Source: Streptomyces sp. I6 (GTDB lineage: Bacteria > Actinomycetota > Actinomycetes > Streptomycetales > Streptomycetaceae). From it: a stretch of DNA of 64,000 nucleotides. The DNA is taken from the NCBI GenBank assembly GCA_003725745.1, contig RHDP01000001.1, positions 5,092,501 through 5,156,500 on the forward strand, written 5' to 3'. A program made the position numbers and the translations under genes. A model generated the notes under the pieces. That model was not told where the DNA came from. It saw only the letters and a program-made list of their open reading frames with translations, and ran no database searches. This document shows, in pieces, positions 1,859 to 49,456 of the stretch; the stretch's first letter is position 1, and the number at the start of each line of letters is the position of its first letter.

Positions 1859-3069
1859 ATGCCGAAGCGACTCCCGATGCCCGGTACGTCCCGCCTCCCG
1901 ACCCGGCGCTCCGTGCTGCGCGCCCTGGGCGCCGCCGCGGCCGGAGCCGCGGGGCTCCCGCTCGCGGGCTGCGGGGTGCCCCGGCCTACGCACGGCCCGC
2001 CGACCGCGCCGGGCGCGACGTCTCCGGCCGCGACCGCACCCTGGACTTCGCCAACTGGCCGCTCTACATCGACACCGACGAGGAGGACGCCTCCCGGCGC
2101 CCCACCCTCGACGCCTTCACCGAGCGCACCGGGATCTCGGTCCGCTACACCGAGGAGATCAACGACAACGACGAGTTCTTCGGCAAGATCAGCCCGGCCC
2201 TGATGAACCGTCAGGCCACCGGGCGGGACCTCGTCGTCGTCAGCGACTGGATGGCCGCCCGCTTCGTACGCCTGGGCTGGGTGCAGGAGATGGACCGCGA
2301 CCGCCAGCCGAACGTCACCGAGCACCTGGACCCCCAGCTGCGCTCGCCCGCCTTCGACGAGGGCAGGCGGCACAGCGTGCCCTGGCAGTCCGGGATCACC
2401 GGAATCGCGTACGACCGCGCCCGCCTGGGGCGCGAGATCCGGAGCACCGCGGACCTGTGGGCCGCCGACCTCAGGGGAAAGGTCACCCTGCTGTCCGGGC
2501 TCGACGAGTCCTTCGGGCTGCTCATGCAGGGCAACGGCGTGGACATCACGCGCTGGACCCCCGGCGACTTCCACACCGTGTGCGACCGGGTGGAGGAGTT
2601 CGTGCGGCGCGGGCACATCCGCCGTTTCACCGGCAACGACTACGTCAAGGACCTCTCTTCCGGAGACGTCCTCGCCTGCCAGGCCTACTCGGGCGACGCC
2701 ATCCAGCTCCAGGCCGACAACCCGGGCATCGAGTTCGTGGTTCCGGAGGAGGGCGCCGAGCTGTGGGCGGAGTCCCTGATGATCCCCAACCTCGCCCGGC
2801 ACAAGAGGAACGCCGAAGCCCTCGTCGACCACTACTACGAGCCCGAGGTCGCGGCCGGACTCGCCGCCTGGGTCAACTACGTCTGCCCGGTGCCCGCGGC
2901 CCGCGACGTCCTCGCCGGCTCCGGCGACGCGGAACTCGCCGCGCTGGCCGAGGATCCGCTGATCTTCCCCGACGCCGCGATGCGCCGGCGGCTGGCGATC
3001 GCCCGCGACATCACATCGGCGGAGCGGCGGGAGTTCGCGAAGCGATGGAACGGCATCGTGGGGCTGTAG
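1859..3069 (+). CDS. Spermidine/putrescine-type ABC transporter substrate-binding lipoprotein (PotD-like), apparent frameshift
   Basis: The N-terminus begins with a twin-arginine-like RR and a lipobox (LAGC), so the product should be an exported lipoprotein. The mature part (DFANWPLYID, DAFTERTGISVRY, RFTGNDYVKDL, WVNYVCPV) is the PotD/PotF solute-binding family, closely related to the copy at 8467. The signal sequence and mature domain are in different frames. One missing base in the GC-rich stretch about 2000-2040 reunites them into about 403 residues. No good ribosome binding site precedes ATG 1859; GTG 1850 is an alternative. No permease follows, so it may feed the potABC transporter at 9764-12659. 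Polyamine binding is inferred from family and context. Confidence 0.8.
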
Positions 3070-3420
3070 CCCGCGCGGTCCGCCGCGGCCCGGGGCGGTC
3101 CCGCTCCGGTCGTCTGGGCAGGGCGCGACCCCGGCCCAGGCGCGCGTCACCCGCGCGACGACGGGCCGGGGCAGTCCGGCGCCACCCGCGGGACGGATCA
3201 CCGCGCGGCCGCACAACTCCCGGTCCGCGCGGGTGGTACGACCCTGCCCTCGGGAACCCGTCCGTGCCCTCGGGGACCTGCCTGACGGCCGGGCAGAGAG
3301 CTGCCCGTGCCGCCCGGTCCGTGGTCCCGGACGCGGGACCACGGGCGGTGCGGTTGCCGATCCCGTGCCGTCCGGTGCCGTCCGGTGCCGTCCCGTGCCG
3401 TCCGGTGCCCTGCGGACCGC
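3070..3420. repeat. Gene-free convergent interval with 10-bp tandem repeats
   Basis: This 351-bp stretch separates the binding-protein gene from a gene on the other strand. Bases 3361-3410 hold five near-identical copies of a 10-bp unit (TCCGGTGCCG type). Other short inverted repeats are present and could serve as terminators for both flanking genes. Nothing coding is convincing. Confidence 0.5.
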
Positions 3421-4137
3421 TCACGGCCGGTGCCCCGGCCCGGCCGCGCCGGCCCGTGCACCGCCCAGGACCCGGGTCAGCGCGTCCACCCGGTTGGTGG
3501 TGATCGAGTCGACCCCGCGGTCCACCAGTCTGCGCATCGCCGCGCGGGTGTCCGCCGTCCACACCGACAGCAGATAGCCCCGCGCGTGAACCGCCTCGGC
3601 CAGCTCCCGGCTGACCAGCCCGAAGCGGTAGTTGAGCCAGCGCGGCCTCAGCGACGCGAGCAGCACGGGACGCGGCGGTGCGAGTGTGGTCCAGGTCAGC
3701 GCGATCTCCGCGTCCGGGTCGGCGTCCCGGACCGCCAGCATGCCGGCGGGACCGCCCGTGTAGTAGACCCGGTCGGCGGCGCCGCCCTCGTGGACCGCGC
3801 CGACGACCGCGCGCACGGACGACTCGTCCGCGCCCGGCAGATCCAGCATGAGGCGGTGGCCGCCGGCCGCGGCCATCGCCGCGGCGAGCGTGGGCACCCC
3901 GCCGCCGGTCAGCTCGGTGAGCCGTGCGTGGGAGAGCCGGGACAGCGGCCGGTCGTGGCCCCACAGGCGCTTGAGGGTGTCGTCGTGGAGCAGCACCGGC
4001 ACCCCGTCACGGGTCAGCCGGACGTCGACCTCCACAGCGTCCGCACCCCGGTCGATCGCCGCCCGCAGCGAGGGCAGGGTGTTCTCGCGTGCGACGTACG
4101 GGTCGCCGCGATGCCCTACGACCGTGACACCGCGCAT
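3421..4137 (-). CDS. Glycerophosphodiester phosphodiesterase (GDPD family)
   Basis: A compact 238-residue TIM-barrel hydrolase that cleaves glycerophosphodiesters into glycerol 3-phosphate and an alcohol. The metal and catalytic motifs are visible in order: GHRGD near residue 9, ENT shortly after, the EVDVR acidic pair near residue 36, and LLHDDTL near residue 48. No signal peptide or membrane segment is seen, so it should be cytosolic. It starts 11 bases after the end of the deaminase gene on the same strand, so the two are probably co-transcribed. There is no obvious metabolic link between them. Confidence 0.85.
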   Translation of the reverse strand: MRGVTVVGHRGDPYVARENTLPSLRAAIDRGADAVEVDVRLTRDGVPVLLHDDTLKRLWGHDRPLSRLSHARLTELTGGGVPTLAAAMAAAGGHRLMLDLPGADESSVRAVVGAVHEGGAADRVYYTGGPAGMLAVRDADPDAEIALTWTTLAPPRPVLLASLRPRWLNYRFGLVSRELAEAVHARGYLLSVWTADTRAAMRRLVDRGVDSITTNRVDALTRVLGGARAGAAGPGHRP

Positions 4138-4147
4138 CGGCCGCGCC

Positions 4148-5172
4148 TCACTTCGCGAGCCACTGCTCGGTGTACGCGTCGATCTCGCCCGCGAGCCGCG
4201 CCTTCCCCGCGGGGTCGAGGAACGACGCCTCCACGGCGTTCCCGGCGAGGGCGGCGACGCCCCGTTCGTCGAGGTCCAGCAGCCGGGCGGCCACCGCGTA
4301 CTCGTTGTTGAGGTCGGTCCCGAACATCGGCGGATCGTCGCTGTTGACGGTGACGAGCACGCCGGCCGCGACCATCTCCCTGATGGGGTGCTCGTCGAGC
4401 GTGGCGACGGCCCGGGTGGCGATGTTGGAGGTCGGGCAGACCTCCAGCGGGATCCGGCGCTCGGCGAGGTGCGCCAGCAGTTCCGGATCCCGCGGGGCGC
4501 TGGTGCCGTGTCCGATGCGCTCGGCCCGCAGGTCGTTCAGCGCGTCCCAGACGGTCTGCGGGCCCGTGGTCTCACCGGCGTGCGGAACGGACCGCAGCCC
4601 CGCGGCTATGGCGCGGTCGAAGTACGGCTTGAACTGCGGCCGGGGCACGCCGATCTCGGGCCCGCCGAGACCGAACGACACCAGACCCTCGGGGCGCAGG
4701 TCGACGGCGAGCCGGGCGGTCTCCTCGGCGGCGTCGAGGCCCGCCTCGCCGGGGATGTCGAAGCACCAGCGCAGCACGACGCCCAGTTCGGCCTCGGCCG
4801 CCTTGCGGGCGTCCTCGATCGCCTCCATGAACCCCTGCTCGGGGATGCCGCGGCGGGTCGAGCTGAACGGGGTCACCGTGAGTTCCGCGTACCGGATGTT
4901 CTGCCGGGCCATGTCCCGGGCGACCTCGAACGTCAGCAGACGGACGTCGTCGGGGTGCGGACCAGGTCCACGACCGACAGGTAGACCTCGATGAAGTGCG
5001 CGAAGTCGGTGAAGGAGAAGTACTCGGCGAGCGCGGCCGGATCGATGGGGACCCGGGAGTCCGGATGCCGGGCCGCCAGCTCGGACACGATACGCGGTGA
5101 CGCCGACCCCACGTGGTGGACGTGCAGCTCGGCCTTGGGGAGGCCCTGGATGAAGGGAAGCAGATCGGTCAC
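4148..5172 (-). CDS. Adenosine deaminase-family amidohydrolase (possibly 6-aminodeoxyfutalosine deaminase), apparent frameshift
   Basis: The product has the purine deaminase metal site and active-site motifs: ELHVHHVGS near the start, GLGGPE, HAGE, ERIGHGT and NSDDP. The reading frame breaks in the G-run at 4952-4955. Restoring one base gives a continuous family member of about 341 residues (joining LSVVDLVR to RQNIRYAELTV). GTG 5172 has GGAGG about eight bases upstream. As I recall, a streptomycete member of this COG1816 group (Sav2595) deaminates 6-aminodeoxyfutalosine in menaquinone synthesis, so that activity is a real alternative to adenosine deamination. The sequence alone does not decide. 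Confidence 0.8.
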
Positions 5173-5278
5173 CGGGTCCTCCGAGTGTGCTGTCCGTACC
5201 GGTCAGGGATCATCGTATGCGGGGCGGGCGCGCGCCGAGCGGGCCCGTAGCATGACAGGACCACGATGGGGGAGGCTC

Positions 5279-6018
5279 ATGTCAGACCAGAGCGACCAGC
5301 GGCCGGACGGGAACGGCCACGAGGATCCGTGGGCTCCGCCTGAGCACCGCACCCCGCAGCACGGGGTGGACTGGAGCAAGCGGGGCGGGCCCGGCAGCGG
5401 CGGTACGCCGCAGAGCGGCCCTCCCGGTGCCCACGACCAGCCGACGGTCACCTCCGTGCCGGGCGGTGATCCTTTCGCGGCTCCCGGTGCCGGGGCGGGC
5501 CCCGGAGGTGACGGGGGCGCCGTCCCCCGCCGCCGCCGATCGCCCCGGGCGGCCCCGGGCAGACGGCGCCGGGCCCGTACGGCCATCCCGCCGGGGTGCC
5601 GGGCGGCACGTTCGGCGGCTCGGCGGGATGGCCGCACGGCGGCCCCACCGGATACCAGGGCCACCCCGGCTACGGCACCGGCGGCTGGGCACCGGCCCCG
5701 GCGAACGGCATGGGGATCACCGCGCTGGTGCTGGGCATCATCGCCGTCGTCGGGTTCTGCCTGTACGGCCTCGGGATCGTCCTCGGCGTCCTGGCGCTGA
5801 TCTTCGGCTTCGTCGGCCGCGCCCGTGCGCGGCGCGGGGAGGCGAACAACGGCGGGATGGCGCTCGCCGGGATCATCCTCGGTGCGGTCGGCATCGTGGT
5901 CAGCGCGGCGTTCCTCGGTTTTGTGATCTGGGCCATCGCCAACGATCCGGAGTTCCGCGACGGGTTCGAAGAGGACCCCTGGGCGACGTCACTCACCGTG
6001 GCCACGGCGGCGCGCTGA
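5279..6018 (+). CDS. DUF4190 membrane protein with proline/glycine-rich N-terminus, apparent frameshift
   Basis: About 246 residues once one C is added to the C-run at 5524-5528. The first roughly 140 residues are polar, rich in Pro, Gly and Gln, and presumably disordered and cytoplasmic. They are followed by two hydrophobic segments (MGITALVLGIIAVVGF... and MALAGIILGAVGIVVS...) with the Gly/Ala pattern of the DUF4190 family, and a short acidic tail. ATG 5279 follows a GGGGGAGG ribosome binding site. It is transcribed divergently from the deaminase. Proteins like this are common in actinobacteria, often several per genome, with no established function. Confidence 0.75.
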
Positions 6019-6143
6019 ACCGGGCGGCCCCCGCGCCGCCCGGTCCCGCCCGCCACCGCACCGCCCGTCCCGCACCGCCCGTCCCGGACACGGCCGAGGC
6101 CGGACACGATCGGGGCGGGACGCGATCGGGCGGGGCACCTCAC

Positions 6144-6725
6144 TCACTCCGTCCGGCCCGCCCTCAGCCGCTCCCGGACCTCCACAGCGCGAAGCCCGGC
6201 AGTTCAGCCCGCGCCGGCGCCCGGGGTCGTGCGCCCGCTCGTCGTCCGCCGCGAGGCCGATGCCCCCTGTGCGGTCCATCGGACTCGCCTCCACCGGCAC
6301 CCGCTCCCCGGTGCCCAGCAGGAACGCGGCCTCCTCGGGGTGCTGTGAGAACGTGTGGGCGTTGCCCCCGACGACGGTGCCGAAGCGCTCCCGCTGCCAC
6401 CTCTCCTCGCTGAAGCCGCGCACCGGCCGGTCCACCTTCTTCGCCCGGGCGGGACCCGCGGCAGCCGCGGCCCTCACCTCGGCCTCCACGTCACCGAAGA
6501 GGCGGGCCTTGCGGGCCGTCATCCAGTGCCCGGCCGTCGCATACTCGATTCCGTCCACGGTGAACGGCGCCGGCCACCACTGGCTCAGGCGGCAGGCGGC
6601 AGGCGGCAGGCACCGACGGCTCCGCCGGGCCGCGGCCGGTGGCCCCAGAAGTGCGGATACCAGACCCGTGCACCCCGACTGATCCGCTCTGTCAGCCTCT
6701 CGACCGATACGTCGGTGATCCCCAT
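6144..6725 (-). pseudogene. NADAR (YbiA-like) N-glycosidase gene, broken
   Basis: Pieces in three frames together give a NADAR-family protein of about 190 residues: LTERISRGARVWYPHFWGH, then LSQWWPAPFTVDG, ATAGHWMTARKARLFGD, GNAHTFSQHPEEAAFLLGTG and LPGFAL. NADAR enzymes hydrolyse N-glycosidic bonds in riboflavin-pathway by-products or ADP-ribose conjugates. The first break lies at a 7-bp tandem repeat (6586-6613) between WGH and SQWW: two extra units would produce exactly this shift and a premature stop. Two later breaks (near 6182-6187 and 6198-6203) fit single missing bases. It is either a genuine pseudogene or a working gene hidden by read errors. The start at ATG 6725 is approximate. Confidence 0.6.
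6586..6613. repeat. 7-bp tandem repeat inside the NADAR gene
   Basis: Three perfect CAGGCGG units (6586-6606) are followed by a fourth partial unit, CAGGCAC. Only one unit is needed to keep the flanking NADAR motifs in register. Variation in copy number would switch the reading frame. Confidence 0.8.
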
Positions 6726-6899
6726 GCACGCGAGTCCGACATCCACCACTGACAATCCGTACGGGATTTCCCTCCTGATGCGACACATGGTCCACCGAAT
6801 CCGTCGCGTAACCAAAAGGCAACTACGGAATCACTTGTTGGGGGACTCTGCCTCTGTCAGGATCGGCATTCACTTCGATCTGGAACTACGGAGAGCGTC
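6726..6899 (+). promoter_or_regulatory. Probable promoter region of the polyamine operon
   Basis: This interval between the divergent NADAR gene and the polyamine operon is less GC-rich than its surroundings. It contains two copies of AACTACGGA (about 6821 and 6883); the second overlaps the ribosome binding region ACGGAGAG just before ATG 6900. No regulator binding site is known to me here. Confidence 0.35.
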
Positions 6900-8414
6900 A
6901 TGGGCAACCGCTTCCAGGTGCGGGACCGTTTCAAGGGCGGCGCACAGTACATCGACGGAAGGCTGCGCCCCGGCACATCGGGACATAGTCACGCAATCGT
7001 AAACCCCGCCACCGGTGAGCAGCTGCTCGCCTACGACCTGGCGGGCACCGAGGACGTCGACGCCGCCGTGGCCGCGGCCCGGGCGGCCTTCCCCGGCTGG
7101 GCGGGTGCGACGCCCGGCGAGCGCTCCGACGCCCTGCACCGGTTCGCGTCCGTGCTCGCCGAGCAGGCCGAGGACCTCGCCGCCGCGGAATCGCTGCAGT
7201 GCGGGAAGCCGATCAAGCTGACCCGGGAGTTCGACGTCCCCGGCACCGTCGACAACACCGCGTTCTTCGCCGGCGCCGCACGCCATCTCCAGGGGCAGTC
7301 CGCGGGCGAGTACAGCGGTGACCACACGTCGTACGTTCGCCGGGAGCCGATCGGCGTCGTCGGGTCCATCGCACCCTGGAACTACCCGCTCCAGATGGCC
7401 GCCTGGAAGGTCCTCCCGGCCATCGCCGCGGGCAACACCATCGTCCTCAAGCCCGCCGAGATCACCCCGCTGACCTCGCTGATGTTCGCCCAGGCCGCCA
7501 CCGAGGCGGGTATCCCCGACGGCGTCCTCAACATCGTCACCGGCACCGGCAGGGAGGCGGGCGAGCACCTGGTCGGCCACCCCGACGTGGCCATGACCTC
7601 GTTCACCGGTTCGACGCCCGTCGGCAAGCGGGTCGCCGAGGTCGCCACGGCCACCGTCAAGCGGCTCCACCTGGAACTCGGCGGCAAGGCCCCGTTCGTC
7701 GTGTTCGACGACGCGGACCTCGACGCCGCCGTCCACGGGGCCGTCGCCGGCGCGCTGATCAACAGCGGCCAGGACTGCACCGCGGCCACCCGCGCCTACG
7801 TCCAGCGCCCGCTGTTCGACGCCTTCGTCGCCGGGGTCGCCGACCTGATGGCGACCGTACGGCTCGGCGACCCCTTCGACCCGGCCACCGACCTCGGCCC
7901 GCTCGTCTCGCACACCCAGCGCGACCGGGTGGCCGGCTTCGTCGACCGGGCCCGCTCGTACGCCACCGTCGTCACCGGCGGCAGGGCACCCGGCGGCGAC
8001 CTGGAGAAGGGCGCCTACTACCTCCCCACGCTGATCGCGGACGCGGCGCAGGACAGCGAGGCCGTGCAGTCCGAGATCTTCGGACCCGTCCTGGTGGTCC
8101 TGCCGTTCGACTCCGACGACGAGGGCATCGCGCTGGCCAACGACACCCCGTACGGCCTGGCCGCCTCCGCCTGGAGCCGCGACGTGTACCGCACGGGCCG
8201 CGCCACCCGCGAGATCAAGGCGGGCTGCATATGGGTCAACGACCACATCCCGATCATCAGCGAGATGCCCCACGGCGGCTACCGGGCCAGCGGGTTCGGA
8301 AAGGACATGTCGGTGTACTCGTTCGAGGAGTACACGCAGGTCAAGCATGTGATGTACGACAACACCGCGGTGGTCCGCAAGGACTGGCACCGCACGATCT
8401 TCGGAGACCGATAA
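6900..8414 (+). CDS. NAD-dependent gamma-aminobutyraldehyde dehydrogenase (ALDH superfamily)
   Basis: A 504-residue aldehyde dehydrogenase, first gene of a seven-gene operon. It shows APWNYP, the LELGGKAP general base, the catalytic cysteine in NSGQDCTAATR, SEIFGPV and a C-terminal MPHGGYRASGFGKD segment. It resembles the enzyme at 202-1641 along its length, with a short N-terminal and C-terminal extension. GGAGAG precedes ATG 6900. A binding protein, an ATPase, two permeases and an oxidase of the polyamine type follow within short gaps. The likely reaction is 4-aminobutyraldehyde to GABA with NAD. Substrate assignment is from motif and context. Confidence 0.9.
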   Translation: MGNRFQVRDRFKGGAQYIDGRLRPGTSGHSHAIVNPATGEQLLAYDLAGTEDVDAAVAAARAAFPGWAGATPGERSDALHRFASVLAEQAEDLAAAESLQCGKPIKLTREFDVPGTVDNTAFFAGAARHLQGQSAGEYSGDHTSYVRREPIGVVGSIAPWNYPLQMAAWKVLPAIAAGNTIVLKPAEITPLTSLMFAQAATEAGIPDGVLNIVTGTGREAGEHLVGHPDVAMTSFTGSTPVGKRVAEVATATVKRLHLELGGKAPFVVFDDADLDAAVHGAVAGALINSGQDCTAATRAYVQRPLFDAFVAGVADLMATVRLGDPFDPATDLGPLVSHTQRDRVAGFVDRARSYATVVTGGRAPGGDLEKGAYYLPTLIADAAQDSEAVQSEIFGPVLVVLPFDSDDEGIALANDTPYGLAASAWSRDVYRTGRATREIKAGCIWVNDHIPIISEMPHGGYRASGFGKDMSVYSFEEYTQVKHVMYDNTAVVRKDWHRTIFGDR

Positions 8415-39483: not shown

Positions 39484-42400
39484 GTGGCTAAGGTCCGGGT
39501 ATACGAACTCGCCAAGGAGTTCGGTGTGGAGAGCAAGGTCGTCATGGCCAAGCTCCAGGAACTCGGTGAATTCGTCCGTTCGGCGTCCTCGACGATCGAG
39601 GCGCCGGTTGTACGCAAACTGACTGACGCTTTCCAGCAGGGTTCCGGGGCCGCCCCGCGAAGCGCTCTGCCGGGAAGCCCGCGGCGCCGCGCAAGTCCGC
39701 ACCCGCGAAGCCCGCCCCGGCGGTGGAGGGCCGCGCGGGCGGTGCCCCGGCGCCCTCCCCGGCGCAGGCGGCGCGCCCCGCCGCCCCGAAGCCCGGCGCA
39801 CCGGCCCCCAAGCCGGCGGCGGCCGAGGCTCCCAGGAGTGTTCCCGCGGCACCGACCCCCGGCCCGCGGCCGACGCCGGGCCCCAAGCCCGCGGCGGCCC
39901 CGAAGCCGGCTCCGGCCGCTCCGGCCGCCCCGGAGTTCACCGCGCCCCCGGCCGCCCCGGCTGCCGGTCCCCGGCCCGGTGCCACTCCCGGCCCGCGTCC
40001 GGCCGCACGTCCCGGCCAGGGCCAGGGCGGCGGCGGTGCCCGTCCCGGCGCCCCGCGCCCCGGTGGCGAGCGCCAGGCTCCGCGTCCCGGTGCCCGCCCC
40101 GCGGGCCCGCGTCCGGGCAACAACCCCTTCACCTCCGGTGGCTCGACCGGTATGGCGCGCCCGCAGGCGCCCCGTCCGGGCGGTGCCCCGCGTCCCGGCG
40201 GTCCGGGTGCCCCGGTGGCCCCCGTCCGCAGGGCGCCGGCCAGGGCGGTCCCCGTCCGCAGGCTCCCGGTGGCTCCCGTCCCACCCCGGCGGCATGCCGC
40301 GTCCGCAGGCTCCGCGTGGAGCCGGCGGCCCCGGCGGCACCGGCGGTCCCGGCGGTAACCGTCCGAACCCGGGCATGATGCCGCAGCGTCCCGCTGCCGG
40401 CCCGCGTCCCGGTCCGGGCGGCCGCGGCCCCGGTGGCCCCGGCGGCCGTCCCGGTGGCGGCGGCGGCGCCGGCCGTCCCGGCTTCGCCGGCCGTCCCGGT
40501 GGCGGCGGCGGTGGCGGTGGCCGTCCCGGTGGCGGCGGTGGCGGCTTCGGCGGCCCCCGTCCCGGTGGCGGCGGCTTCGGCGGTGGCGGCGGTGGCCGTC
40601 CCGGCTTCGGCGGCCGTCCCGGCGGCCCCGGCGGCCGCGGTGGCACGCAGGGTGCGTTCGGCCGCCCCGGCGGCCCGGCGCGCCGCGGCCGCAAGTCGAA
40701 GCGGCAGAGGCGCCAGGAGTACGAGGCCATGCAGGCCCCGTCGGTCGGCGGTGTGATGCTGCCCCGCGGCAACGGCGAGACCGTCCGTCTGTCGCGCGGT
40801 GCCTCCCTGACCGACTTCGCGGAGAAGATCAACGCCAACCCGGCGTCGCTCGTCGCCGTGATGATGAACCTCGGCGAGATGGTCACCGCCACGCAGTCCG
40901 TCTCCGACGAGACGCTGCAACTCCTGGCCGGCGAGATGAACTACACGGTTCAGATCGTCAGCCCGGAGGAGGAGGACCGCGAGCTGCTGGAGTCGTTCGA
41001 CATCGAGTTCGGCGAGGACGAGGGCGGCGAGGAGTTCCTGGTCGCGCGTCCGCCGGTGGTGACCGTCATGGGTCACGTCGACCACGGCAAGACCCGGCTG
41101 CTGGACGCGATCCGCAAGACGAACGTCGTCGCGGGCGAGGCCGGCGGTATCACCCAGCACATCGGTGCGTACCAGGTCTCGACCGAGGTCAACAACGAAG
41201 AGCGCCGCATCACCTTCATCGACACCCCGGGTCACGAGGCGTTCACCGCCATGCGTGCCCGCGGTGCCAAGTCGACCGACATCGCGATCCTCGTGGTGGC
41301 GGCCAACGACGGTGTGATGCCCCAGACGATCGAGGCGCTGAACCACGCCAAGGCGGCCGACGTGCCGATCGTGGTCGCGGTCAACAAGATCGACGTCGAG
41401 GGCGCCGACCCGACGAAGGTGCGCGGTCAGCTGACCGAGTACGGCCTGGTGGCCGAGGAGTACGGCGGCGACACCATGTTCGTCGACATCTCCGCCAAGC
41501 AGGGCCTGAACATCGAGAACCTGCTGGAGGCCGTGGTCCTGACGGCGGACGCCGCCCTGGACCTGCGGGCCAACCCGGAGCAGGACGCGCAGGGCATCGC
41601 GATCGAGTCCCACCTCGACCGCGGCCGCGGTGCCGTCTCGACCGTCCTGGTCCAGCGGGGCACCCTGCGCATCGGTGACACCATGGTCGTCGGCGACGCG
41701 TACGGCCGTGTCCGCGCGATGCTCGACGACAAGGGCAACAACGTCGACGAGGCGACCCCGTCGACTCCCGTCCTGGTCCTGGGTCTCACCAACGTCCCGG
41801 GCGCCGGCGACAACTTCCTGGTCGTCGACGAGGACCGCACGGCCCGCCAGATCGCCGAGAAGCGTGCCGCCCGTGAGCGCAACGCCGCGTTCGCCAAGCG
41901 CACCCGCCGGGTGTCCCTCGAGGACCTCGACAAGGTGCTCAAGGCGGGCGAGGTCCAGCAGCTCAACCTCATCATCAAGGGCGACGCGTCCGGTTCGGTC
42001 GAGGCCCTCGAGTCCTCGCTGCTCCAGCTGGACGTCGGCGAAGAGGTCGACATCCGCGTGCTGCACCGCGGTGTCGGTGCGGTCACCGAGTCGGACATCG
42101 ACCTGGCGACCGGCTCCGACGCCATCGTGATCGGCTTCAACGTGCGCGCCGCCGGGCGCGCCACGCAGATGGCCGAGCGCGAGGGCGTGGACGTCCGCTA
42201 CTACTCGGTCATCTACCAGGCGATCGAGGAGATCGAGGCGGCCCTCAAGGGCATGCTCAAGCCGGAGTACGAAGAGGTCGAGCTCGGCACGGCGGAGATC
42301 CGCGAGGTCTTCCGCTCGTCCAAGCTGGGCAACATCGCGGGTGTGCTCATCCGCTCCGGCGAGGTACGGCGCAACACCAAGGCGCGCCTCATCCGCGACG

Positions 42401-42570
42401 GCAAGGTCGTCGCGGAGAACCTCACCATCGAGGGTCTGCGCCGCTTCAAGGACGACGTCACCGAGATCCGCGAAGGCTTCGAGGGCGGTATCAACCTCGG
42501 AAACTTCAACGACATCAAGGTCGACGACGTCATCGCGACGTACGAGATGCGCGAGAAGCCCCGCGGCTGA
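39484..42570 (+). CDS. infB: Translation initiation factor IF-2, three apparent frameshifts in the N-terminal linker
   Basis: About 1029 residues once three bases are restored (near 39645-39657, 40209-40217 and 40283-40289). The IF2_N domain ([21 protein letters not shown]) is followed by a Pro/Gly/Ala-rich linker of some 330 residues, a second IF2_N-like helix, then the GTPase domain with [20 protein letters not shown] and SAKQG, and domains II-IV. The three breaks cancel, so the gene reads open from end to end, but residues about 55-270 are wrong as written. The long Gly-rich linker is usual in Streptomyces. GTG 39484 follows AAAAGGAG. Confidence 0.95.
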
Positions 42571-43076: not shown

Positions 43077-43553
43077 GTGGCCGACAACGCGCGGGCCCGC
43101 AAGCTGGCCGATCGCATCCAGGTCGTGGTCGCGGAGACCCTGGATCGGCGAATCAAGGATCCGCGGCTGGGCTTCGTCACGATCACGGACGCCCGGGTCA
43201 CCGGCGACCTGCGGGAGGCCACGGTCTTCTACACGGTGTACGGGGACGACGAGGAGCGCGCGGCGTCCGCCGCGGCGCTGGAGTCCGCCAAGGGCGTCCT
43301 GCGGTCCGAGGTGGGCCGTCAGACGGGGGTCCGCTTCACGCCGAGCCTGACGTTCGTCCCGGACGCCCTCCCGGACAACGCCCGGACCATCGACGACCTG
43401 CTCGACAAGGCGCGGGCGAAGGACGCCGAGGTCCGCCAGGCGTCCACGGGCAAGACGTACGCGGGCGGGGCCGACCCCTACCGCAAGCCGGAGGACGAGG
43501 ACGACGACGAGGGCCGCGACGAGGGCAGGGACGAGGACACGGCCTCCGCATGA
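43077..43553 (+). CDS. rbfA: 30S ribosome-binding factor RbfA
   Basis: A 158-residue KH-fold protein that helps 16S rRNA maturation. The core ([38 protein letters not shown]) and [19 protein letters not shown] are typical. The C-terminus is an acidic tail ([19 protein letters not shown]), common in streptomycetes. GTG 43077 follows GAGGAGAAGGA. Its stop overlaps the truB start by four bases. Confidence 0.95.
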
Positions 43554-44479
43554 GCCAGCACAGCAACGCCGCCCCGGCCGCCGGCGGGGGCGGCACCCCG
43601 GACGGCCTGATCATCGTCGACAAGCCGGCCGGCTTCACCTCGCACGACGTCGTCGCCAAGATGCGGGGCATCGCGCGGACCCGCCGCGTCGGTCACGCGG
43701 GCACGCTGGACCCGATGGCGACCGGAGTACTGGTCCTGGGCGTCCAGAAGGCCACCAAGCTGCTCGGCCATCTGGCGCTCACCGAGAAGGAGTACCTCGG
43801 CACGGTCCGGCTCGGCCAGACCACGGTCACCGACGACGCGGAGGGCGAGGTCACCTCGTCCGCCGACGCATCCGGCATCCCCCGGGACGCCGTCGACGCC
43901 GGGGTCGCCGAACTGACCGGCGACATCATGCAGGTGCCGTCGAAGGTCAGCGCCATCAAGATCGACGGCAGGCGGTCCTACGCCCGGGTCCGCGGCGGCG
44001 AGGAGTTCGACATCCCCGCCCGTCCGGTGACCGTGTCGCAGTTCACCGTCCACGACGTCCGCGAGGCCGTCGCCGAGGACGGCACACCCGTGACCGACCT
44101 CGTGGTCTCGGTGGTCTGCTCCTCCGGCACCTACGTCCGCGCCCTCGCCCGCGACCTCGGCGCCGGGCTCGGCGTCGGGGGGCACCTGACCGCACTGCGC
44201 CGCACCCGCGTCGGGCCGTACCGGCTCGAGGCGGCCAGGACCATCGACCAGCTCCAGGAGGAGCTGACGGTCATGCCGATCGGTGAGGCCGCCGTAGCGG
44301 CGTTCGCCCGCTGGGACGTCGACGAAAGGCGCGCCCGGCTGCTGCTCAACGGCGTACGCCTGGACATGCCGGAGTACGGCGGACGGGGGCCGGTGGCCGT
44401 CTTCGGGCCCGAGGAGCGGTTCCTGGCACTCGTCGAGGAGCACCGGGGCAAGGCGAAGAGCCTCGCGGTCTTCGGCTGA
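43550..44479 (+). CDS. truB: tRNA pseudouridine(55) synthase
   Basis: A 309-residue enzyme that makes pseudouridine 55 in tRNA. The active site [17 protein letters not shown] carries the catalytic aspartate near residue 50. [16 protein letters not shown] and [17 protein letters not shown] are the other hallmarks. The C-terminal domain is of the actinobacterial TruB type. It is the last gene of the rimP-truB operon and is followed by a strong terminator. Confidence 0.96.
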
Positions 44480-44533
44480 CGCCCGCGGGCGAAGGCCCCG
44501 CGGGCCTGCCCGCCGGGCCGTGCGGGGAGTTCC

Positions 44534-44570
44534 ATCGTGGAGCGGGCAGGGCCGCTGCCCGCTCCACGAT
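44534..44570 (+). terminator. Perfect 16-bp terminator ending the translation operon
   Basis: Arms 44534-44549 and 44555-44570 match perfectly around a 5-base loop, 54 bases past truB. The next gene therefore probably has its own promoter in 44571-44712. Confidence 0.9.
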
Positions 44571-44712
44571 CCCCCTCGGAGGGTGTCTATCCGTCCCGCA
44601 CCATGGATTCACCCCAACGGGCAGGCGCTCGGAGTGCACCGGGGGTGCACTCGGGGGCGCGTTCGTCCGGCGCTCTTCTCCCCGTGATCAACTCCGGCCT
44701 ACCGTCGGAGCC

Positions 44713-47700
44713 ATGGGACGCGAGGACCTGGCGACGCTGGTGCGCATCTGTGATCCGGCGGGCCGGCCGCGCGGGACCGGCTTCGCCGTCGACGACCGGG
44801 GCACGGTCGTGACCAGCCATGAAGCAGTCGGCGGGCTCGACCGGATCGTGCTGAGCGTGCCCGGCGGCGGAACCTGCGCCGCCGACGGCGTCACCCTCCT
44901 GCCGGAGGCCGATCTCGCGCTCGTCCGCACCAGCGGGCTCGCCCTGACACCCCTGCCGGTCGCCGTCCGGGACCGGCCGGGGGACGGCGCGTACGTACGC
45001 ATCCCGGCCGGTGGCTGGCGCGAGGCCCGCGTCCTCGGCGAGATCCCGGCCACCTACACCGCCGACGGCCGCGCACACCACCTCCACGGCGCCCTCGAGC
45101 TGGCCGTCGGCACCGGGGGAAGCGACGCCCTGGGGCCGGGCGGCACGGCCGGCGGTGGTCCGGTCGTGGACAGCGCAACCGGATCCGTGGTGGCGGTCCT
45201 CACGGGCACCGCGCCGGACACCGCGCACCCCGCGGCGGGCCTCGCCGTACCCCTGCGTACGGCGGCCGCGCGCGACCCCGGCGGGCCGCTCGGGGCACTG
45301 CTGCGGCGCAACGCCCGCACCGTCCCCGGTTTCGGGGCCGATCTCAACCTCGCCGGAGCCCGGTGGCTGGCCGCGGTGTCCCTCGGCCCCGCCGGGCCGG
45401 CCCGCGGCGCCGGCACCCGTACCGAACCCGTCGAACGCCCGCATGTGGTCCGGGAGTTCGCGGAGTTCGAGGCATCCCCCGCACATGTCCTCACCCTCAC
45501 CGGAGCCCTCGGGAGCGGCCGTACCACCGAACTCGCCGCGCTCGCCGCCCGGCGGGCCCAAGGCGCCGAGGCGGGCGTCTCGATCTGGCTGCGCGGCGCC
45601 GACCTCGCGGCGGGCGACCGCGGCCTGGCGGACGCCGTCGCCCGCGTTCTGGCGCGCTCCGGCCGGGTCGTCGCCGGGATCACGGCCCACCGCGGCGGCC
45701 CGTGGACCGTCCCGGCGGCCGGCACGGAGGCCGCTCCGGAGCACGTGGCACGCGTCGCCCGCGAGGCCGGCCGGCCGCTGTTCGTCCTCCTCGACGGCCC
45801 CGAGGAGATGCCCGCCGCCCTGGCCGCACGGCTCCCCGACTGGACGGCGGAGACGGCGCGCTGGCTGCGCGACCACGGCGTACGGCTCGTGGTCGCCTGC
45901 CGGCCCGCGTACGGGGAGCGGGCCGCGGCACTCTACCCCGAGGCCGCCGTGCACCGGCCGGCGCTGCACCTCGGCCCGCTGACCGCGCGGGAGGCCGAGC
46001 AGGCCAGGGCGCGCCTCGGACTCCCGGCCGGTGCGACGGCCGCGGCGGACGCCCGCCATCCGCTGGCCCTCGGACTCCTGGCGGAAGTGCGGGACGCACT
46101 GTCCGGCGAGGTGCCCGGCCGGCCGTCGCGCGAGGAGATCCTCACGGCGTACACGGACCTGATGTGCCTGCGTGCCGCGACGCGGCTCGCCGAGACCGCG
46201 GGGCACGGGCATGACGGGCCCCGGGTGCGCCTGCTGGCGGCCCGGGTGGCCGGACGGGTCCACGAGGCGGCGCGGCGCTGCCTCGGCCCGGGTGAGGCAG
46301 GTCTCGACCGGGAGACCTTCGGGGACGTCTTCCCCTGGCGGACCGGATGGGCGTCCGCGGTGCTCGCCACGGGGCTGCTGGTGCCCGCGGGCGGCGGCTA
46401 CCGCTTCGCCCACGAGGAGGTCGCCGAATGGCTGCAGGCCGCGCACCTCGACGTGGACACGGTCCTGCATCCGCTGCTGCACCGTGAGGACGACTCGGCG
46501 GTGGACGGGGGTACGCCGGCGCTGCCCCGGCACCGGATGGGCACGGTCGTCGGGGCGCTGCTCCTGCTGGACCGCCGCTCCGGGGAGTCCGCGCTGGCAC
46601 CCCGGCTCACCGCGCTGGTCGACGTCCTCGACGGCATGGGTGCGCTCGGCGGTCTCGAAGTGCCCGACGGCCGGCACGGTTTGGGCGGTCCGGCCGGCTT
46701 CGGCGGGCCGGACGGCCGGCATGCTTTCGGAGGCTCGGACGGCCCTCCTGGTTTCGGCGGCTCGGACGACTCGCACGGTTCCGGCGGTCCTGCCGGCATC
46801 GGCGCACCCGGCGCGGGTCAGGCAGCGGGTGCGGACATCCACTGGTGGGCCGCAGGGCTCCTCCGGGAGACGCTGCTGCGCGTGCCGCGTACTCGCAGAT
46901 ACCTCGGTGTGCTCCGCACCCTCGCCGACCGCATCACCCTGCGCGCACTGCGGCCGGGCGGGCCGCGCCGGACGCCCGGTCCCGGCGAGTTCGGCCCCTC
47001 CTTCTGGCAGGCGCTGCACATCGGCGAAGCGGAGCGCATGGACCTGCTGCGCCGCCTCGTCCCGGCGGACGGGCCGCCCGAGCGCACCGGGACCGGCCGA
47101 TGCGGCGCGCGGAGTGCCCCGGTACCTCGGCCGCAGGCCGCTGCCCGGAGGATCCCGGCGCACGCCGGCCGCCCCGCTATCTGGACGCGGTCGCCGAACG
47201 GCTGGCCCGGTCACCACGAGCCGTACAGCCGCTGCTCTGCCGCTGGTTCACCGACGACAGGCCGCTGCCCGCGGCGCCCGGCGCGGCCATCCGGCCCACC
47301 GTCGCCGCCGCGGCCCAGGCCCTCCTGCACACCCACCGGGACGGGCCGTCGACGATCTCTGCGAGGCGCTCGTCAGCACCGCCCACCCCGTGCCCGGGAG
47401 CTGCTGACCGCGCTCACCGAGGACGAGCCGTCCGCCGTCTGCCGGGCCGTCGACCGCTGGGCCCACGACGACACCCGCCCGGCGCGCCGGCTCGCCGCCG
47501 CCGCGTACGCGCCTGCCGTGGCGGCGCATGTCACCACCCGGGCCGATCGCGACCTGCTGAGATACGCGGCGCTGGCGCTCCTCGCCCGGCCCGCCGACAC
47601 CGCCCTGCACGGCGCCGCGCTCGCCGTCCTCGTCCGCGACCCGCGGACCCGTCCGAGCTACCTCGCGCGCGCCGTGGAGGCGTACCGCGACGATGATCCG

Positions 47701-48447
47701 GGAGTGCCCGCCGAGGTCCTCGCCGCCGCGGCACCGACCCACCCGGAGCCGGTGTTCGCGGCGTTCCGCGCCGCGCTGCGCCGCCCGGGCGGCGGGGCGG
47801 GCGACGTGCTGCGGGCGCTCGCGGGACTCGACACACCCGCGCTGGCCCGCCGCGCGGCCGCCCTGGTGGGCGAGTACGTGGGACTGCGGCCCTCGGGCGG
47901 CGCGCACGCGGCGGCCTTCGTCGCGCTCCGGCTGCGGCACGGCGTGCCGGCGCGGGCCGTGCTGCTGCCGCTCGTGGTGGACCTGCTGCGCGGCCGGCCC
48001 GCGACGGTGCGGTGTGCGCTGGCCGCCGTGCTCGGGGCACCGGGGAGCCCGGCTTGCGAGCCGCTGCGCACCGAGCTGCTGGACGTCCTCCTGGAGTACG
48101 AGCGGTACGAGGGCGGCGACCCGGAGGTCCTGGACACGGTGCTCCAGGCCGCCGTGCGCGCCCCGGGGGTGCGGTCCTCTGATCCCCGCGTCCGCGAACT
48201 GGTCCACCGCGTCGGCCTCCTCCTCGTACGCACCCCGCAGGGCGCGAACCGCTTCGACCGCCGCCTGGTCGAGCTGGCCCGCCAGGTGCCCGGATTCGCG
48301 GCCGACGCGGTGTCGTGGCAGGCGGAGGCGCCCCGGGAGTGGGCGGTGGTGATCGGCCCCAGCACACGCCGGACGCTGGAGGCGCTGGGCAGCCAGGTGC
48401 CGATGCCCACGACGCTGCGCGGGCATGGCAGTCTTAGACCTGCGTAA
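44713..48447 (+). CDS. Trypsin-like domain fused to a STAND-type NTPase with helical C-terminus; three apparent frameshifts
   Basis: About 1245 residues after three bases are restored (47095-47165, 47342-47347, 47385-47391). Residues 1-190 look like a trypsin-like peptidase: TSHEAV with His near 36, EADLALVRTS near 67. The serine motif reads GTAGGGP instead of GxSGGP, so the nucleophile may be lost. Residues about 255-400 are an NTPase: P-loop GALGSGRTT (Arg in place of Lys), Walker B LFVLLDGPEE, then RLVVACRPAYG, the sensor strand of NACHT/STAND proteins. A Gly-rich repeat linker (about residues 640-700) leads to a long alpha-helical, HEAT-like region. It stands alone between the truB terminator and ribF. 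The function is unknown; a signalling or defence switch is inferred. Confidence 0.7.
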   Translation: MGREDLATLVRICDPAGRPRGTGFAVDDRGTVVTSHEAVGGLDRIVLSVPGGGTCAADGVTLLPEADLALVRTSGLALTPLPVAVRDRPGDGAYVRIPAGGWREARVLGEIPATYTADGRAHHLHGALELAVGTGGSDALGPGGTAGGGPVVDSATGSVVAVLTGTAPDTAHPAAGLAVPLRTAAARDPGGPLGALLRRNARTVPGFGADLNLAGARWLAAVSLGPAGPARGAGTRTEPVERPHVVREFAEFEASPAHVLTLTGALGSGRTTELAALAARRAQGAEAGVSIWLRGADLAAGDRGLADAVARVLARSGRVVAGITAHRGGPWTVPAAGTEAAPEHVARVAREAGRPLFVLLDGPEEMPAALAARLPDWTAETARWLRDHGVRLVVACRPAYGERAAALYPEAAVHRPALHLGPLTAREAEQARARLGLPAGATAAADARHPLALGLLAEVRDALSGEVPGRPSREEILTAYTDLMCLRAATRLAETAGHGHDGPRVRLLAARVAGRVHEAARRCLGPGEAGLDRETFGDVFPWRTGWASAVLATGLLVPAGGGYRFAHEEVAEWLQAAHLDVDTVLHPLLHREDDSAVDGGTPALPRHRMGTVVGALLLLDRRSGESALAPRLTALVDVLDGMGALGGLEVPDGRHGLGGPAGFGGPDGRHAFGGSDGPPGFGGSDDSHGSGGPAGIGAPGAGQAAGADIHWWAAGLLRETLLRVPRTRRYLGVLRTLADRITLRALRPGGPRRTPGPGEFGPSFWQALHIGEAERMDLLRRLVPADGPPERTGTGRCGARSAPVPRPQAAARRIPAHAGRPAIWTRSPNGWPGHHEPYSRCSAAGSPTTGRCPRRPARPSGPPSPPRPRPSCTPTGTGRRRSLRGARQHRPPRARELLTALTEDEPSAVCRAVDRWAHDDTRPARRLAAAAYAPAVAAHVTTRADRDLLRYAALALLARPADTALHGAALAVLVRDPRTRPSYLARAVEAYRDDDPGVPAEVLAAAAPTHPEPVFAAFRAALRRPGGGAGDVLRALAGLDTPALARRAAALVGEYVGLRPSGGAHAAAFVALRLRHGVPARAVLLPLVVDLLRGRPATVRCALAAVLGAPGSPACEPLRTELLDVLLEYERYEGGDPEVLDTVLQAAVRAPGVRSSDPRVRELVHRVGLLLVRTPQGANRFDRRLVELARQVPGFAADAVSWQAEAPREWAVVIGPSTRRTLEALGSQVPMPTTLRGHGSLRPA

Positions 48448-48505
48448 GGAGTCATCATTGCGCACGCAGGTTCGATGTTTCGGGTTCGGGCGAGGAGCGG
48501 TCACA

Positions 48506-49456
48506 GTGCAGCGCTGGCGTGGCTTGGAGGACATCCCCCAGGACTGGGGGCGCAGCGTCGTCACCATCGGTTCCTACGACGGCGTGCACCGCGGCCACCA
48601 GCTGATCATCGGGCGGGCCGTGGATCGGGCGCGGGAGCTCGGCGTGCCGTCGGTCGTGGTCACGTTCGATCCGCACCCGAGCGAGGTCGTCCGCCCCGGC
48701 AGCCACCCGCCGCTGCTCGCCCCGCACCACCGGCGCGCGGAGCTGATGGCGGAACTCGGCGTGGACGCGGTGCTGATCCTGCCGTTCACCTCCGAGTTCT
48801 CCAAGCTGTCGCCGGCCGACTTCATCGTGAAGGTGCTGGTGGACAAGCTGCACGCCCGTGCGGTGATCGAGGGCCCCAACTTCCGCTTCGGCCACCGGGC
48901 GGCGGGCAATGTCGACTTCCTGACCGAACTCGGCCGCACCTACGACTACGAGGTAGAGGTCGTCGACCTCTTCGTGCGCGGCGCTGCGGGCGGCGGCGAG
49001 CCCTTCTCGTCCACGCTGGCCCGGCGGCTGATCGCGGAGGGCGACGTGGAGGGGGCGGCGGAGATCCTCGGCCGGCCGCACCGGGTCGAGGGCGTGGTCG
49101 TCCGCGGTGCCCAGCGGGGCCGCGAGCTGGGCTACCCGACGGCCAACGTGGAGACCCTGCCGCACACCGCCATCCCCGCGGACGGCGTCTACGCGGGCTG
49201 GCTCACCGCCGGCGGGGAGCGCATGCCCGCCGCGATCTCCGTGGGCACCAACCCGCAGTTCGACGGCACCGAGCGGACGGTCGAGGCGTACGCCATCGAC
49301 CGCGTCGGCCTCGACCTGTACGGGCTGCACGTGGCGGTCGACTTCCTCGCCTATGTGCGCGGCATGGCCCGGTTCGAGTCCGTCGAGGCCCTTCTCGACG
49401 CCATCGCCACCGATGTGAAGCGCGCGCGTGAACTGACGGCGGAGTACGACGCCTAA
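48506..49456 (+). CDS. ribF: Bifunctional riboflavin kinase/FAD synthetase
   Basis: A 316-residue enzyme that makes FMN and FAD. The N-terminal adenylyltransferase has GSYDGVHRGHQLII and NFRFGHRAAGN; the C-terminal kinase has GRELGYPTANV and GVYAGWL. GTG 48506 follows CGAGGAGCG at a spacing of about nine bases; this gives the usual MQRWRGLEDIP start. It lies 58 bases after the fusion protein gene and converges with the peptide transporter genes. Confidence 0.95.
   Translation: MQRWRGLEDIPQDWGRSVVTIGSYDGVHRGHQLIIGRAVDRARELGVPSVVVTFDPHPSEVVRPGSHPPLLAPHHRRAELMAELGVDAVLILPFTSEFSKLSPADFIVKVLVDKLHARAVIEGPNFRFGHRAAGNVDFLTELGRTYDYEVEVVDLFVRGAAGGGEPFSSTLARRLIAEGDVEGAAEILGRPHRVEGVVVRGAQRGRELGYPTANVETLPHTAIPADGVYAGWLTAGGERMPAAISVGTNPQFDGTERTVEAYAIDRVGLDLYGLHVAVDFLAYVRGMARFESVEALLDAIATDVKRARELTAEYDA

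Follow-up and report, generated by a model that had tools for sequence, protein, structure and literature searches.

We analysed a stretch of 64,000 nucleotides from Streptomyces sp. I6 (contig RHDP01000001.1, positions 5,092,501 to 5,156,500; hereafter the window), focusing on an open reading frame (ORF) of 1244 codons at 44713-48447 on the forward strand. It is flanked on the left by truB (43550-44479, forward strand; Pfam TruB_N, E = 5e-44) and on the right by ribF (48425-49456, forward strand; Pfam FAD_syn and Flavokinase). In the ribF ORF the FAD_syn domain starts at residue 39, and translation probably begins near 48506. An initial annotation, made from the sequence alone, had read the gene between them as a trypsin-like domain fused to a NACHT/STAND-like NTPase and a long helical repeat region. 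Pfam, structure models and profile-profile comparison bear out this layout: the protein begins with a trypsin fold, continues with a NACHT-like ATPase of the STAND type that includes a winged helix, and has a HEAT-like helical solenoid as its C-terminal part. Its own genome yields one match to the protein (E 1e-3), that is, the gene is single. In an intact relative, L001, the highest mean hydrophobicity of any 19-residue stretch is 1.33, with no evident transmembrane part; since no such stretch is strongly hydrophobic, the protein is probably cytosolic.

The trypsin-like domain, which resembles HtrA and MarP, occupies residues 21-162 (44773-45198, forward strand), where Pfam Trypsin_2 scores 30.5 bits (cut-off 27.6; E = 7e-7). 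An AlphaFold2 model of residues 1-640, built on 31 rows, reached a mean predicted local distance difference test (pLDDT) of 85.2 and a predicted template modelling score (pTM) of 0.85. This model places the start of the first trypsin-fold strand at residue 9, and its best Foldseek matches are Rv3671c (MarP; E = 5e-10), Deg1 and DegS. Pfam and Foldseek thus agree that the double beta-barrel is present. Serine proteases carry the motif GxSGGP around the nucleophile. The window protein has GGTAGGGP instead, with Gly147 at the serine position, as the initial annotation had read it (GTAGGGP), while His36 and Asp67 are kept (triad state H-D-G).

To follow these positions across the family we aligned 65 rows, namely the window, a set of 44 loci from its genus together with one more from it, and 19 from other Streptomycetaceae genera; they are not all independent, L001 and L022 being identical. 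A smaller alignment, examined for a conserved serine or cysteine, took in 31 of 45 rows, and two others 15 and 33. His36, Asp67 and Ser147 are all present in only 5 of the 65 rows (L008, L085, L086, L087 and L102). Of the 63 rows that can be read at every triad site, 58 have an incomplete triad; the remaining two rows lack letters at two of the sites. The histidine is retained in 56 of the 63 rows having a letter there. The aspartate column holds Asp in 20/65 rows and Gly in 39/65, and the serine column holds Ser in 8/65, the other 57 having Ala, Val, Ile, Thr, Pro, Gly or Cys. No invariant or near-invariant serine or cysteine was found in the trypsin domain of the 31-row alignment. On these residue patterns the protease site appears to be degenerate, not relocated, which supports for most members the suggestion that the protease-like domain serves as a scaffold or binder.

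The ATPase core shows the opposite behaviour at its own motifs, which hardly vary. In its P-loop, GALGSGRTT (residues 264-272; 45502-45528, forward strand), the Walker A lysine is replaced by Arg270. This replacement, already noticed in the initial annotation, is found in all 65 rows, as are Gly264, Gly267 and Gly269. The Walker B region FVLLDGPEE (residues 357-365; 45781-45807, forward strand) aligns to the NACHT DGxDE motif, and its Asp361, Glu364 and Glu365 are present in all 64 readable rows. Arg397, which corresponds in position to the sensor arginine of NACHT proteins, is found in 56 of 64. A winged-helix-like region containing YRFAHEEVAEW (residues 530-589; 46300-46479, forward strand), recognized from the secondary structure of the model, aligns to the NACHT stretch FVHRTF. 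For comparison we aligned 15 of 18 NACHT segments taken from 20 loci of related genomes (two loci gave no pattern match); the segments were chosen by a P-loop pattern admitting either lysine or arginine, and all 15 have the lysine. When 15 family rows were set against these 15 NACHT proteins with hhalign, the match reached 95% probability (E = 4e-8) over 290 columns, from the P-loop to the winged-helix F-H motif. A control against ABC ATPases, with a two-sequence profile, gave 33% over 28 P-loop columns, and the background of NACHT against ABC 50% over 34 columns. The match to nSTAND5 proteins (60%, E = 8.5e-5, 125 columns) is not far above this P-loop background. A lack of any NACHT/STAND homology in a profile search had been named beforehand as the result that would count against the claimed NTPase, and the kinship was found.

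Beyond the winged helix, a Gly-rich linker of 27-bp tandem repeats (46669-46787, forward strand; Tandem Repeats Finder) joins the NTPase part to the solenoid (46840-48444, forward strand), a putative sensor arm. The window copy of the solenoid is frame-broken (see below), and the C-terminal half was accordingly studied on intact relatives, the database searches having used the window ORF as read. The model of the C-terminal 710 residues of L001 (pLDDT 84.6, pTM 0.76) is all helical past the winged-helix part. Foldseek matched it to CAND1, importin-beta and the PP2A scaffold, with a best E of 3.7e-5 and low template modelling scores. No Pfam family names the solenoid: three families each matched 1 of 33 members, which we judged to be chance. 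Prediction domain by domain thus yields the trypsin fold, the winged-helix region and, in L001, the all-helical solenoid.

The forward ORF at 44713-48447 is indeed there, but it does not represent a single intact frame: comparison with L001 and L002 shows that the true frame departs at about 47109, runs through two other frames and resumes at about 47386. The displaced stretch (47110-47385, forward strand) makes some 90 of the 1244 residues wrong, a defect that had been missed. In the same window infB (encoding IF-2; 39484-42570) is frame-broken from about 39630 to 40543 relative to L001 and L002, and other gene readings in the window hence need frame checks. infB is an essential gene. Because it is likewise broken, and because the assembly is scored at 87.42% completeness in two contigs, the break in our gene is likely a sequencing or assembly error more than the mark of a dead gene.

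We then looked at where the gene occurs, in genome samples of the genus, family, order and class that overlap. It was found in 83 of 101 genomes of the genus (E <= 1e-10), in 126 of 150 Streptomycetaceae genomes (9 of 17 genera) and in 161 of 197 genomes of the order (2 of 6 genera; E <= 1e-8). In the class sample it was found in 20 of 246 genomes (E <= 1e-10, best five candidates per genome), all of them in the genus to which the window belongs (1 of 103 genera). The named relatives that carry both domains are Streptomyces. Taken together, these searches indicate that this is a Streptomycetaceae gene, and most of the listed relatives have long open frames. Four non-Streptomyces loci (L016-L019) were dropped as relatives, their match being limited to part of the trypsin domain.

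Its place is fixed. The order truB-gene-ribF, which the initial annotation had given for the window, was found in 13/13 loci spanning both sides and in 20/20 further loci (33/33); L003 and L006, which lie at contig ends, were excluded from this count and from the identity comparison below. In L008, a full-triad row from Streptomyces sp. WMMB 322, truB and the gene are separated by some 3.9 kb of other DNA (3056-6974). Among 30 genomes lacking the gene, truB was found in 29 and ribF in 28. In 27 of these 30 the two lie on one contig, 114-817 bp apart, and the other three are accounted for by contig breaks or low completeness.

Comparison of upstream regions revealed a conserved promoter-like motif, GATCA-N7-CCTACCGTCG, which in the window lies at 44686-44707 (forward strand) and ends 5 nt before the ATG. 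Allowing up to two mismatches, 41 of 45 upstream regions have it, against 1 of 45 in shuffled controls (best of 20 single-base shuffles per region); it is absent from all 20 truB-ribF spacers without the gene that were read (146-817 bp between matches). In 23 of the 41 regions 4-5 nt separate its end from the chosen start codon, a spacing that would suit a leaderless transcript. A search of the window's own genome returned one exact place, at this gene, and no regulon sites. Scans of 44400-44760 with promoter and terminator consensus sequences found nothing. After truB there is a 16-bp perfect inverted repeat with a 5-nt loop (44534-44570), a possible terminator without a T tract, and similar hairpins were seen by eye in the spacers of several relatives without the gene. 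At the other end, the last bases of the gene ahead of ribF include a motif ATGGCAGTCTTAGACC (48425-48446). The core of this motif occurs in 10 of 34 loci that have the gene and in 13 of 20 that lack it, and the motif may belong to the promoter of ribF.

To see how complete and broken triads are related, we built a maximum-likelihood tree of 62 rows with a midpoint root, leaving out L010 and L011, which start too late, and L093, which is partly masked. Complete triads sit in three places: L102 and L008 are single branches just below a 46-row clade, and L085-L087 group together. The 46-row clade, to which the window belongs, holds no complete triad. L008 is a long branch, and deep branching of complete triads is seen for L102 and L008 only. 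The tree fits an active protease ancestor with repeated loss, although regain is also conceivable. As for rates, mean identity over 33 loci is 0.45 for the trypsin domain, 0.49 for the solenoid and 0.51 for the NTPase; the solenoid is therefore not hypervariable.

Several known systems share parts of this design. Bacterial NACHT/STAND (NLR-like) proteins have the NACHT-like core, the Walker B DG.EE, the winged-helix region and C-terminal repeats; they differ from the present family in its invariant Walker A arginine, its fixed locus and its lack of a convincing defence-model match. The trypsin-like proteases HtrA, DegS and MarP (Rv3671c) are alike in fold, whereas here no transmembrane part is evident (in L001), the triad is mostly incomplete and the domain is fused to an NTPase. 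A further parallel is LypA, of the Caulobacter CARD-NLR-like system LypABC. LypA is reported to be a CARD-trypsin-ATPase protein whose ATPase has no conserved Walker residues, the system controls release of a gene transfer agent, and the LypA serine is required for function (PMC13236601). Both proteins thus place a trypsin-like domain before an ATPase domain, in LypA one without conserved Walker residues. LypA, compared here by that description and not by sequence, differs in its CARD-like domain, its required serine and its partners lypB and lypC, whereas our protein has only about eight residues before the trypsin domain, a HEAT-like tail and no partner at the site. Two features of CARD-NLR systems generally are likewise lacking here: the N-terminal CARD-like domain, the trypsin fold starting at residue 9, and adjacent partner genes, the neighbours being truB and ribF (the rest of the genome was not searched for partners). 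Finally, iSTAND and MoxR-vWA conflict systems are alike in that they are reported to contain inactive STAND modules and inactive trypsin domains (PMC7159879, PMC8195603). They are described there as multi-gene systems, in contrast to the gene studied here with its neighbours truB and ribF.

Our preferred reading, to which we give even chances, is that the protein is a vertically inherited, cytosolic NLR-like switch of the Streptomycetaceae in which a protease has turned into a binding module. The C-terminal solenoid would hold or read a ligand. Lysine-to-arginine changes in the Walker A motif of RecA/Rad51 allow nucleotide binding and block hydrolysis. By analogy, the NACHT-like ATPase with its invariant P-loop arginine would bind nucleotide and probably hydrolyse it poorly; by changing shape or assembling, it could hence act as a switch that works slowly or in one direction only. 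The trypsin domain at the N-terminus, which probably began as a protease effector, would now in most members be a protein-binding module relaying the signal. The gene would have been passed down at a single place in the chromosome, with a promoter of its own, and a host-adapted (domesticated) role therefore fits better than that of a recently exchanged defence gene.

A number of observations weigh against this reading. With the window protein all STAND models remain below their curated cut-offs (nSTAND5, E = 0.098), also when the NTPase part is searched alone (nSTAND5, E = 0.012; NACHT, E = 0.076), and a Pfam NACHT search of the window's own genome at E 1e-10 did not find the gene. When solved structures were searched with a profile of the NTPase part, the matches lay mainly at the P-loop (FlhF, ABC proteins), so that the NACHT kinship rests on the profile-profile comparison; among the best 50 Foldseek matches of the N-terminal model there were only trypsin folds, the NTPase fold not being independently matched. 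In the tree, L085-L087 fall within the other main clade, surrounded by broken-triad rows, and an active ancestor followed by losses is thus not the sole reading; in the five full-triad members proteolysis may be possible. Roughly one sampled genome in six lacks the gene (18/101, 24/150 and 36/197), and frames stop early in some relatives too (L025, L039, L042). Its domains evolve faster (mean identity 0.45-0.58) than truB (0.74) and ribF (0.81), and their distances track those of the neighbours only moderately (Spearman 0.23-0.63, against 0.64 between truB and ribF). Such faster evolution would also fit an immune gene.

Indeed, an antiphage NLR-like sensor comparable to bNACHT or CARD-NLR systems, if one inherited with unusual stability, is possible, though we consider it rather unlikely. 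A phage product would bind the solenoid, and the pseudo-trypsin would trigger dormancy or death through a partner. The layout is that of known bacterial NLR-like defence proteins, and patchy absence and the rate relative to the neighbour genes point the same way; trypsin domains, nearly all inactive, are reported in the effector position of one class of conflict systems (PMC7159879). Yet PADLOC found nothing in the window protein (E <= 1) or in four of five relatives, the fifth giving one chance-level row (E = 0.063), and neither a partner gene at the site (those elsewhere in the genome were not searched for) nor a solenoid hypervariable relative to the rest of the protein was found. A single copy at one housekeeping locus in 33/33 loci is unlike a typical mobile defence gene, yet compatible with defence. 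The same constancy of position, among infB, truB and ribF, would favour a role in translation or ribosome maturation, for example as a checkpoint binding ribosome-assembly intermediates, and inactive STAND domains have been proposed to bind nucleic acid (PMC8195603). We hold this to be improbable, as the gene has its own upstream motif, which suggests separate transcription, and as truB and ribF simply lie close together in nearly all genomes without it.

Two further explanations concern the broken triad itself, and both seem to us very improbable. The gene could be a decaying relic drifting to loss, as the incomplete triads, the sporadic absence, the frame break in the window and the early stops in some relatives might suggest; against this, most listed relatives have long open frames, the NTPase motifs are invariant family-wide, the upstream motif is conserved and infB is broken in the same assembly. 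We give even slightly less credence to a protein that is still a protease with a different nucleophile, an idea close to the proposal of the initial annotation that the active serine lies elsewhere. The retained histidine and the five full triads would favour it, but the freely variable serine column, the frequent glycine in place of the aspartate and the domain's lack of a near-invariant serine or cysteine in the 31-row alignment speak against this proposal.

Returning to the NLR-like switch, a more specific form of it can be put forward tentatively, and we think it somewhat doubtful: a bacterial NLR in the core genome of a whole family, with a fixed Walker A arginine that makes it a trap binding nucleotide but hydrolysing it poorly, a trypsin domain converted from enzyme to adaptor and a promoter motif found at a single exact place. 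Its input would be a condition within the cell itself, for instance stress on translation, development or the activity of a prophage. About five-sixths of the sampled Streptomycetaceae genomes carry the gene, and in the literature searched we found no study of the protein, nor anything under SCO5710, presumably the locus tag in S. coelicolor. The protein is an NLR-like variant whose P-loop arginine is fixed and whose protease site few members keep complete. Because the family holds both complete and broken triads, the relation between protease effector and pseudo-enzyme becomes directly testable within one NLR-like family. The invariant Walker A arginine, in turn, raises the question of whether normal hydrolysis is dispensable for a STAND switch.

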